Source: Rhizobium sp. FY34 (GTDB taxonomy: Bacteria > Pseudomonadota > Alphaproteobacteria > Rhizobiales > Rhizobiaceae). From it: DNA of 64,000 bases. Location: NCBI RefSeq assembly GCF_005222845.1, contig NZ_STFZ01000011.1:461996-525995 (forward strand), written 5' to 3'. Positions 5,476-46,798 of the stretch are shown piece after piece. Numbering within the stretch: the first letter of the stretch is position 1; every line of letters starts with the position of its first letter. Below the pieces are notes generated by a model, which was not told the DNA's origin, made no database searches, and was given only the letters and a program-made list of their open reading frames with translations. Both the position numbers and the translations under genes were made by a program.

Positions 5476-6216
5476 ATGGAGAGGCGCATGTGGCATCTTG
5501 TTCTTGCTCTCGGCATGGTGCTTGCGCCGTCCTTTGCCCTATCCGCCGAGATCCGCTTTGCCACAGAACCCTATCCGCCCTTCAGCTTCCAGAATGCCGA
5601 GGGCAAGGCCGATGGTGCCGGCGTAAAACAGGTGGAAGCCGTCATGAAAGCGGTGGGAGCCGATATCGGCTATTCCATTGAGGTGATGCCCTGGGCCAGA
5701 GCCCTTGCACTGGCTGAGGCCCGTCCCGACCATTGCGTGTTTGCGACAGCGCGAACGCCGGAACGGGAAGCGCGCTTCCAATGGGTCGTCCCGCTGCTGC
5801 GCGACATCAATGTGCTTGTCGCCCGGCAGGGGTCGAGCGTCACGGCCACGCGGCTTGAAGAGGCCACGGGCTTTACGGTCGGAACACAGCGCGAGGATTA
5901 CAGCGAAGCCCTCTTACGCAATGCTGGCTTCACCAAGATCGATCTCAGCGCCAGCTTTGACATTACTTTAGCCAAGCTTCTGGGTCAGCGCATCGAACTG
6001 ATGGCGATGTCCCTGCCTGTCTACCAGAAGCTGCTGCGCGACAATGTGCCGGTGCGCCTCCTGACGACGCTTTCCGCCCAGGATCTGGGGATTGCCTGCA
6101 ACAAGGATATCGACACGCAGCTAATCGCTCGTATGCAAAAGGCACTTGATGCCCTGATCGCGAGTGGCGAGCAGGCGAGGATCCAGCAAAGCTTCGGAGT
6201 TCCCCCCGTTCGTTAG
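5476..6216 (+). CDS. Periplasmic substrate-binding protein, amino-acid/polyamine-like SBP family 3
   Basis: The 246-residue protein has a signal peptide (MERRMWHLVLALG, cleavage expected after ALSA) followed by EIRFATEPYPPFSF, the usual opening of family 3 solute-binding proteins. The rest keeps the two-lobe pattern, for example GFTVGTQREDYSE and a late DLGIACNK. Starts are possible at 5455 (GTG), 5476 and 5488; 5476 is preferred because it gives a basic n-region behind GGGG. No permease or ATPase gene is adjacent, so this is probably not a conventional ABC importer component. Directly behind a GGDEF-EAL gene, it may instead present a ligand to that protein's periplasmic domain, as NspS does for MbaA in Vibrio. 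That role is inference. Confidence 0.8.
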   Translation: MERRMWHLVLALGMVLAPSFALSAEIRFATEPYPPFSFQNAEGKADGAGVKQVEAVMKAVGADIGYSIEVMPWARALALAEARPDHCVFATARTPEREARFQWVVPLLRDINVLVARQGSSVTATRLEEATGFTVGTQREDYSEALLRNAGFTKIDLSASFDITLAKLLGQRIELMAMSLPVYQKLLRDNVPVRLLTTLSAQDLGIACNKDIDTQLIARMQKALDALIASGEQARIQQSFGVPPVR

Positions 6217-45973: not shown

Positions 45974-46133
45974 GGTCTCTTCTCCTTCGCGTCCAGCGTC
46001 GGCGCTTGTGGCAAAAGCCTGTGACAGCGCTCGGAACGTGGATCAAGGCCTCAGTCGAGGCTTTTGGTTTCAAATCGGGGAAATTCTGCGAGGAGCTTTG
46101 AGCCGACGGGCGCTTACGGCCGCCGGGCGCTCC
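45974..46133 (-). promoter_or_regulatory. leuA leader RNA with competing hairpins
   Basis: Between the leader-peptide stop and leuA, CAAAAGCCT (minus strand of 46058-46066) can pair with AGGCTTTTG (minus strand of 46012-46020), a perfect 9-base match. The same arm can instead form the tight hairpin GCCTC-GACT-GAGGC within 46044-46066. The two are mutually exclusive, as expected of an attenuator. A textbook U-tailed terminator is not obvious, so whether control is by termination or otherwise is unresolved. Confidence 0.45.
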
Positions 46134-46259
46134 TCAACGGACCCGGCAACCGCGGATAAGGCCGAGAAGAAGAAGCGAGTTTGGCACGGATGCGCGAATG
46201 CCGGCCGCAGTGCGGGCAGTCATGTCAGTCGCAGCAATGGTTGTGCCGTTGATCGTCAT
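46134..46259 (-). CDS. leuL: leuA leader peptide
   Basis: The 41-codon ORF on the leuA strand ends with the run CTT CTT CTT CTC GGC CTT (Ser-Leu-Leu-Leu-Leu-Gly-Leu), seven codons before its stop. Leucine codons at this spot upstream of the leucine synthase gene are the hallmark of ribosome-mediated attenuation. The stop lies 160 bases before leuA. A promoter (46266-46294) ends only 6 bases before the ATG, so the transcript probably begins at or next to the start codon (leaderless), as reported for trpL in Sinorhizobium. A second in-frame ATG at codon 13 has no ribosome site. Confidence 0.75.
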   Translation of the reverse strand: MTINGTTIAATDMTARTAAGIRASVPNSLLLLGLIRGCRVR

Positions 46260-46265
46260 GGAAGT

Positions 46266-46294
46266 TTGATAGCGCGGGAAAATGCACAGTGCAA
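46266..46294 (-). promoter_or_regulatory. Promoter of the leuL-leuA transcript
   Basis: On the minus strand, TTGCAC (46294-46289) and TATCAA (46271-46266) are separated by exactly 17 bases. The expected start is near 46259-46260, at the leuL ATG. Confidence 0.65.
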
Positions 46295-46299
46295 GCGGG

Positions 46300-46548
46300 T
46301 TATTCGGCGGCTGCCGCCGAAGCCGCTTCCAGTTTTTCCGTCAGCCAGATTTCAAGGAGTGCATCCCGTGTCACACCAAGTTGCTTGGCACGCCTGTCTA
46401 AGTGCAACATAGTCCCACGCTTGACCATTACCGTCATCTGAACGGGCTCCAGATTGGGCCGGGTTGCCTTACTCCAGTCGACATAGTCGCTGATGTCCTC
46501 GCCATCATCGAATTTGCGATCGAATTCTTCAGCGCTGATTGTCTTCAT
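46300..46548 (-). CDS. brnA: BrnA-type antitoxin
   Basis: The 82-residue protein has an acidic N-terminus (DRKFDDGEDISDYVDWSKATR) typical of BrnA, followed by a ribbon-helix-helix-like region ending RAKQLGVTRDALLEIWLTEKLEAA. Its start overlaps the toxin gene by 20 bases, as in other brnT-brnA operons. It should bind and neutralise BrnT and repress the operon. The -35 of the leuL promoter begins six bases after its stop. Confidence 0.88.
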   Translation of the reverse strand: MKTISAEEFDRKFDDGEDISDYVDWSKATRPNLEPVQMTVMVKRGTMLHLDRRAKQLGVTRDALLEIWLTEKLEAASAAAAE

Positions 46549-46798
46549 ACCGACGCCTTTCCTGAATTCTGGCCCGACGGACAGAGATGATGCGAATATT
46601 CTCCCCACGCGGGGTGTAGATCGCCGTCCAGAACACACCATGGATGCGGCCTATCAAGACACGCCTGTTCTCTGCGACATGGTCCGTATCGAACTCGACG
46701 CCCCGCACATCATACCACAAAGCCTGGGCCTCGACAAAGTCGATCCCATGCTTTTCTTTATTGGCAGCGCTCTTGACCGGATCGAATTCGAACTCCAT
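46529..46798 (-). CDS. brnT: BrnT-type ribonuclease toxin
   Basis: The 89-residue protein has FEFDPVKSAANKEKHGIDFVEAQALW at the start and GVFWTAIYTPRGENIRIISVRRARIQERRRYE at the end, the conserved BrnT pattern. BrnT is a RelE-fold ribonuclease active on mRNA when free. The toxin precedes its antitoxin on the minus strand. The module lies between benE and leuA. Confidence 0.9.
   Translation of the reverse strand: MEFEFDPVKSAANKEKHGIDFVEAQALWYDVRGVEFDTDHVAENRRVLIGRIHGVFWTAIYTPRGENIRIISVRRARIQERRRYEDNQR

Follow-up and report, generated by a model that had tools for sequence, protein, structure and literature searches.

The leuA gene of Rhizobium sp. FY34 is, with little doubt, preceded by a leucine leader, a short open reading frame that ends shortly after a run of leucine codons and lies on the same strand as the gene. 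A Leu-rich ORF is found at the same place ahead of leuA in all 80 of the relatives that were kept for comparison (the best 80 of 569), and the leucine leader peptide proposed for leuA in a preliminary description of this DNA is thereby upheld. Tentatively, we propose that the leader is a leucine-sensing, ribosome-operated translational switch of the type known as the LEU element, a mechanism to which, taken as a whole, we give slightly less than an even chance. If it is true, an actinobacterial element of unsettled mechanism would also control leucine synthesis across a large alphaproteobacterial family, and the mechanism would become testable in genetically tractable alphaproteobacteria. It would furthermore provide a clean case of codon choice fixed by decoding and base pairing jointly. 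The analysis also adds to most genomes of the family a leader gene that is unannotated in the records examined.

The window, which is the whole stretch of 64,000 nucleotides that was analyzed and to which all positions refer, belongs to an assembly of 5.04 Mb. Its leuA product scores over the cut-off for NF002991 and for TIGR00970, the latter being the yeast-type leuA model, and the nearest named relatives of the LeuA protein are found in Neorhizobium, Rhizobium, Pseudorhizobium and Allorhizobium. The features of the locus are collected in Table 1. The preliminary description gave the Leu codons of the 41-codon ORF exactly but placed them at its end; the run lies near the end, and seven codons (ATC CGC GGT TGC CGG GTC CGT) separate the last Leu codon, CTT, from TGA. 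Likewise, the interval 46134-46294 that had been marked out contains the ORF but omits a structured downstream part at 46133..45977 (-). Searches of the leader peptide of the window against Pfam and NCBIfam gave zero family matches. Rfam gave no match above the curated threshold in the window, the leader region, nine relatives or three actinobacterial loci, and its one match to the leader region is at chance level and on the opposite strand. Between a benE-like transporter gene and the leuA leader promoter is positioned a BrnT/BrnA toxin-antitoxin pair (46529..46798 and 46303..46548 (-); Pfam PF04365, NCBIfam NF047399).

Table 1. Positions in the window of the leader, its promoter, the predicted RNA structures and leuA
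Feature	Position	Strand	Basis and remarks
-35 box TTGCAC	46289..46294	(-)	Sequence; 17-nt spacing to the -10 box in 75 of 81 leaders
-10 box TATCAA	46266..46271	(-)	Predicted transcription start at the A of the leader ATG (46259)
Leader ORF	46134..46259	(-)	41 codons, MTINGTTIAATDMTARTAAGIRASVPNSLLLLGLIRGCRVR, stop TGA; conserved
Putative sensor codons CTT CTT CTT CTC GGC CTT	46158..46175	(-)	Codon bias and duplex
Predicted base stem, 5' side, CUUCUUCUUC	46175..46166	(-)	First ten bases of the Leu run; duplex
Segment 2, CGGTTGCCGGGT	46141..46152	(-)	Within the RGCRV codons; pairs with 46128..46117; covariation
Segment 3, GCCCGGCGGCCG	46117..46128	(-)	Pairs with segment 2, or joins the inner stem of the second hairpin
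Second hairpin, 5' arm GAGGAGC	46129..46135	(-)	Overlaps the stop codon; within the loop of the 2:3 hairpin
Second hairpin, 3' arm GCTCCTC	46090..46096	(-)	Without a U-tract after it
Small hairpin H4, GCCTC GACT GAGGC	46048..46061	(-)	Predicted fold
Long hairpin H5, directly before the leuA Shine-Dalgarno (SD) sequence	45992..46042 (approximate)	(-)	Predicted fold; weak covariation in another set of loci
leuA SD region, GAAGGAGAAG	45979..45988	(-)	Predicted to pair with the Leu run at 46175..46166: 10 pairs, one G-U
leuA, 2-isopropylmalate synthase, 574 aa	44249..45973	(-)	Family matches

The promoter pair TTGCAC-17-TATCAA is present as had been claimed, with 6 nt between TATCAA and the leader ATG. 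A generic consensus promoter scanner, which demands a T at the sixth -10 position, misses the pair. Promoter placement was compared in a set of 81 leaders composed of 77 placed relatives, L082, L083, L084 and the window; L062, L070 and L078 were seen separately. After five leader starts that had been set too late were moved two codons upstream, the -10 box was found to end 6-7 nt upstream of the leader ATG in 72 of the 81, so that the leaderless layout put forward earlier is borne out by the promoter spacing. Where a leader has several in-frame ATGs the start was picked by promoter score, which favours this result; a gap of 6-7 nt is nevertheless seen in 26 of the 29 leaders that offer only one in-frame ATG, and in 46 of 60 further loci of the family. 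The mean promoter score is 9.0 at leader ATGs versus 4.4 at 5,998 control ATGs, 0.017% of which reach the observed median. To judge from this layout, the leuA leader transcript is very probably leaderless. The likeness to trpL seen earlier also holds for the promoter, as in this genome trpL (MKTSLVISIWWWAR) and the upstream ORFs of ilvI and leuC have, by eye, a promoter layout of the leaderless type. Work on Sinorhizobium meliloti reports rnTrpL as leaderless and places a small leaderless ORF ahead of leuC (PMC10117765). The ORF ahead of leuC in the genome of the window (leuC at 161312 of G000:C34, locus L121) has 40 codons, the leaderless promoter layout and no Leu run, and is possibly the counterpart of the translated S. 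meliloti SEP18 (PMC10117765).

Conservation of the leader extends across most of the family. Loss of the Leu codon run in close relatives was looked for among the 80 kept and found in none, and alignment of the upstream regions of leuA in the Rhizobiaceae confirmed that the Leu codons and the hairpins are both kept. The leader is 41 codons long in 67 of the 81 leaders, and its end takes two main forms, LLLLGL(I/T)RGCRVx and LSLLSLDLTRGCRVx. When the family was sampled with R1, a covariance model built on this region, 182 of 199 genomes and 101 of 109 genera gave a match, with a single match per genome in all but one genome; eight of the 17 family genomes without a match are at most 2.0 Mb in size. 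With filters that lose weak matches, R1 matched 18 of 297 genomes in a sample of the order, confined to two families, and, with the same loss, two of 289 in a sample of the class, the window's own genome included. The sole match outside the order, L210, precedes a LeuA frame and has the leader MHIFDGILLLGLIGARRA. Sixty further and diverse loci of the family all have a Leu-rich leader, and the LeuA motif lies downstream in 59 of them; at the sixtieth, L150, it was found with a second motif pattern. The S. meliloti record CP090106.1 (L082) carries the leader and lists no feature there, its gene table being incomplete. This record of 3.7 Mb is labelled S. meliloti pSymB and carries the leuA locus; its size suggests a mislabelled chromosome. 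Among the literature matches listed, as titles and the starts of abstracts, there is no report of a leuA leader in Rhizobiaceae, and Vitreschak et al. 2004 may include one.

The leader ORF bears signs of translation, as far as patterns of substitution and codon use can indicate it. In the N-terminal half, substitutions fall on codon positions 1, 2 and 3 in shares of 28, 23 and 49% (352 overlapping pairs from 67 leaders). At least four of the last 16 codons encode Leu in each of 141 leaders, and a CTT stands eight codons upstream of the stop in 140 of them. CTT accounts for 63% and CTC for 27% of the Leu codons in these last 16 positions, or 696 of 771 together. The choice is quite different within leuA itself, where among the 1,185 Leu codons in the first 230 codons at 80 loci (L083 being out of frame and left out) CTT makes up 1.3%, CTC 12.5% and CTG 72%; the two favoured codons thus amount to 90% at the leader end versus 14% (163 of 1,185) in leuA. 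A search for tRNA genes in the window's own genome gave 42 matches, and the ten long ones that were examined include five tRNA-Leu genes, one of them with the anticodon GAG.

Two helices near the leader stop codon were followed through the family in two alignments, A3 with 56 sequences and A5 with the 60 further loci and the window, fitted to a model of the 2:3 helix. In A3, 99.7% of the cells of this helix are paired, with eight double changes that all fall in one pair; in the more diverse A5, 98.1% are paired, with 14 double changes over five pairs. Sliding the partner strand reduces pairing to 19-57% in A3 and 20-50% in A5. Shuffled versions of A3 reach the count of pairs with double changes in 368 of 500 cases and the count of pair types in 477 of 500, and for A5 each of the two counts is reached by 68 of 500 shuffles. 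Other measures of covariation in the 2:3 helix lie above all shuffles, an excess that kinship alone can give without structure. In Hoeflea and others the peptide GCRVR has become DRRAR with the 2:3 pairing kept; because the change leaves the pairing intact, the conserved C-terminus of the peptide appears to serve the RNA.

Every one of 56 aligned sequences pairs at all seven positions of the outer stem of the second hairpin; at the first of these, 43 have GC and 13 have AT. One gap column hides part of this pairing from the formal count. The 3' arm differs correspondingly in leaders with a TAA stop codon or an inserted base. For the inner 3' strand, the actual order of bases fits the hairpin better than mononucleotide shuffles do (mean z -1.62 over 50 distinct sequences, 43 of them below -1). 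Fold z scores in the window are -2.73 for the 2:3 hairpin and -3.00 for the second hairpin; over 63 loci, the attenuator region does not surpass the leader coding part in fold energy (mean z -1.28 versus -1.24). Both helices covary, and since GAGGAGC sits in the loop of the 2:3 hairpin, the modelled helices could coexist as an H-type pseudoknot. Because both hairpins show compensatory changes, the element looks like a regulatory leader rather than a functional small protein. Two further hairpins are predicted at 46061..45992 (-), and their topology recurs in relatives together with large sequence turnover. That H4 and H5 form a separate structured domain was considered and set aside, as their fold energy has a mean z of -1.11 versus -1.24 for the leader coding part (63 loci) and the H5 stem shows weak covariation, with 81.9% of cells paired in 24 sequences; the domain stays a lead.

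Our reading of the leader draws on the complementarity between its Leu codons and the leuA SD. The start regions of 52 genes in the window, assigned by script, were compared as partners of the Leu run, and the best is that of leuA, at -20.1 kcal/mol against a mean of -11.35. For the wider comparison the 141 leaders were reduced to 138 (L180 is without a LeuA motif and two are without a usable start), and then to 129 by a distance filter of 85-185 nt and the removal by hand of L042, L177, L190, L191 and L196, whose assigned starts looked wrong. Collapsing identical pairs left 111 for partner permutations and 106 for folds, shuffles and ranks. When these 106 leaders are folded whole, the SD pairs mainly with the Leu codons, at 2.0-2.6 expected pairs per 6 nt, versus 0.6-1.1 on the flanks of the run and on the last stretch before the SD and less than 0.3 in most other places; more than three pairs between the SD and the Leu run are expected in 98 of the 106 folds. 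The longest complementary run has a mean of 7.1 and is at least 8 in 43 of 106 leaders, compared with 0 to 5 of 104-106 for four other segments.

How specific the pairing is to each leader's own gene is less clear-cut. When the own SD was ranked among 51 generic start regions as a partner of each leader, it came within the best 10% in 34 of 106 cases, compared with 11 of 106 for a control segment; its rank is worse than 0.3 for 25 of 106, with S. meliloti L082 at 0.49. Matched partners are 0.75 kcal/mol better than permuted ones, a difference that 2 of 5,000 permutations reach with relatedness uncontrolled. Against dinucleotide-shuffled SDs the gain is slight (mean z -0.26, s.e. 0.10), since any purine-rich stretch pairs with CUU codons. 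Individual pairs illustrate the complementarity. In L156 and L159, of one genus, the leader carries CTCTTACTT and the stretch before leuA AAGTAAGAG, and Neorhizobium leaders such as L015 carry CTCGCTTC with GAAGCGAG at their leuA start. We regard the predicted base stem between the Leu run and the SD as likely, though short of proven. The possibility that the 3' arm GCTCCTC by itself masks the leuA SD was also considered, and it does not hold generally, as GGAG, GAGG or AAGGA is present in only 58 of 106 leuA start regions.

In the switch that we propose, transcription would start at the AUG of the leader ORF, and the ribosome would therefore start at the very 5' end of the RNA. The run of CUU and CUC codons would serve as the sensor, decoded by tRNA-Leu(GAG), and also as an anti-Shine-Dalgarno sequence that pairs with the purine-rich leuA SD about 180 nt downstream. 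When leucine is abundant, the ribosome would pass the run and leave, the run would pair with the SD with the help of the intervening hairpins, and leuA would be silent. With leucine short, the ribosome would presumably stall in the run and hold it open while the 2:3 hairpin forms ahead of it; the SD would then be uncovered and leuA translated, the direction of control and the translational output being those that we infer. Under this model leuA could be turned on only if the leader is translated, and replacing the run by synonymous CTG codons should make leuA expression constitutive. A bolder reading, which we consider somewhat less likely than not, is that the sensor codons are the anti-SD itself, that transcription termination has no part, and that one such switch is common to the Actinomycetota and the alphaproteobacterial Rhizobiaceae. 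Effects of leader changes in Streptomyces that are unlike those of classical attenuation could be explained in this way, because sensor and stem would be hit at once.

Attenuation in the manner of trpL was the mechanism first suggested for this leader, and part of that suggestion, the leucine leader, stands. Competing, covarying helices also suit such a mechanism; an intrinsic terminator is not supported, as the U-tract is absent in nearly all leaders. Classical ribosome-mediated transcription attenuation would have the ribosome stall on the Leu codons so that 2:3 forms as an antiterminator, with the stop-codon hairpin otherwise terminating transcription, and its terminator would have a weak or unusual tail or the help of a protein. 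Several observations speak for it. The two covarying helices would be mutually exclusive if the second hairpin zips fully, a ribosome with the fourth Leu codon in its A site would just leave segment 2 free, and the second hairpin, whose inner 3' strand order beats the mononucleotide shuffles, resembles an attenuator terminator except in its tail. In the same genome trpL and ilvI look classical, and as controls they show what is wanting, since their hairpins are followed by T6 and T7, respectively. After the second hairpin of the leuA leader, however, a run of at least four T within 12 nt is present in 2 of the 81 leaders and 1 of the 60 further loci, and missing from 79 and 59, and a terminator scanner found nothing between leader and leuA on the leuA strand; farther downstream of the hairpin, before leuA, a run of 4 or 5 T occurs in 34 of 81. 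Moreover, a terminating ribosome would cover the 5' arm of the hairpin, because the hairpin begins inside the stop codon. In view of the complementarity between the Leu run and the leuA SD, translational control of leuA is at least as likely. The weak shuffle statistics, the poor ranks and a published statement on Streptomyces coelicolor that is taken up below nevertheless leave some room for classical attenuation with an unusual terminator, which we judge unlikely without dismissing it. The trpL locus (L117, ahead of trpE at the right edge of the window) and the ilvI locus (L112, leader MIVSNALIVVGKRMGRVV) are in their own right classical-looking leaderless attenuators.

The lack of an intrinsic terminator in the scan would also agree with leucine-dependent Rho termination, or RNA processing, between the leader stop and leuA, set by the position of the leader ribosome, and Rho has been suggested for actinobacterial cys leaders that are without terminators (PMC1262725). 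However, beyond the hairpin the RNA shows little sequence conservation and is predicted to be structured, and we consider this explanation improbable. That the ORF encodes a small protein with a function of its own seems to us scarcely credible and was rejected. The codon-position constraint in its N-terminal half would be expected of such a protein, and in S. meliloti a resistance operon reportedly requires the peptide peTrpL for its regulation (PMC7298713), but the N-terminal half is highly variable, the shift of the conserved C-terminus from GCRVR to DRRAR goes together with a change in its RNA partner, and the protein family searches described above returned nothing.

Our preferred reading, the translational switch, has a good architectural likeness to the LEU element of actinobacterial leuA genes (Seliverstov et al. 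2005, PMC1262725). This element is described as a leader ORF with a Leu run and a pseudoknot or alternative hairpin, in whose base stem the Leu codons pair with the leuA SD. Like the rhizobial leader in our proposed reading, it combines a short Leu-run ORF before leuA with pairing of run and SD and with central helices that can form a pseudoknot or another hairpin, and no terminator is described for it. Its authors favoured a protein-binding site and considered classical attenuation unlikely on the basis of S. coelicolor mutants (PMC1262725). In that species, mutations of the leader peptide of leuA had some effect inconsistent with classical attenuation, and the same work concluded that mutations of the Leu codons were without influence on regulation (PMC1262725), a statement that therefore counts against the SD switch in S. 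coelicolor.

Actinobacterial leaders were read in Nonomuraea (MLRGLLLSCRGGGL), Microbacterium (MQFGLLLLSCRDESSD) and Nocardia (MQRALLLGRRDGV). By eye, a -10-like box lies 6-7 nt ahead of the ATG in those of Microbacterium and Nonomuraea, as in the rhizobial leader. The three ORFs are 13-16 codons long, whereas most rhizobial ones have 41, and the rhizobial hairpins differ in sequence from those of the LEU element, with H4 and H5 lying between. In Microbacterium the Leu run and the SD would form a long helix around a GC-rich hairpin, and in Nocardia their pairing is weak, at -8.2 kcal/mol. With the alphaproteobacterial model, the Nonomuraea leader is recovered at its proper position (19.8 bits, rough E 0.0019), whereas Microbacterium L252 yields nothing up to E 10 and the leader of Nocardia L253 is likewise missed. 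Within 350 nt, a Leu-rich leader was found in neither Streptomyces L254 nor Burkholderia L255, and Sphingomonas L256 has a different Leu-rich leader. The LeuA protein is 54% identical to that of Nocardia and about 50-52% identical to several proteobacterial copies, and these values single out no donor for a horizontal transfer of leuA together with its element from Actinobacteria.

Leu-run leader peptides of leu operons are also known from enterobacteria. The enterobacterial leuL uses rare Leu codons and, like the rhizobial leader, is biased to one set of Leu codons; unlike the rhizobial leader, it has a classical terminator at its end and a translation start from an SD. Its peptide is 28 aa long with four Leu (PMC6123439). 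Within the alphaproteobacteria, a leader of ilvIH or ilvB is attributed to Vitreschak et al. 2004, as cited in PMC1273637, and an ilvIH leader is known in Caulobacter (PMC4117421); like the leuA leader, these are branched-chain leader peptides upstream of biosynthetic genes. The ilvI leader of the window's own genome shares the leaderless layout and differs in the T tract after its hairpin. The leuA leader resembles the S. meliloti trpL/rnTrpL (PMC10117765) in its leaderless layout and in carrying several codons in a row for the amino acid that is sensed. The trpL of the window's genome has 14 codons and its hairpin leads into T6, whereas the leuA leader is without a U-tract and is complementary to the SD of its gene.

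Other families of the order have leaders of different kinds ahead of leuA. In L107, L110 and L111 an extra short ORF lies upstream of a Leu-poor leader. By eye, the extra ORF ends in RLLSPTS in L107 and reads RLVCPTS in L111, and its stop codon is located in a hairpin loop; the Leu-poor leader (LRLIGSRRD in L110) retains the 2:3 helix with different letters. A further leuA leader, ending by eye in LLLSRP or LLLLSRP, is found in L096, L097, L099, L103, L104 and L106, and in it a hairpin surrounds the stop codon.
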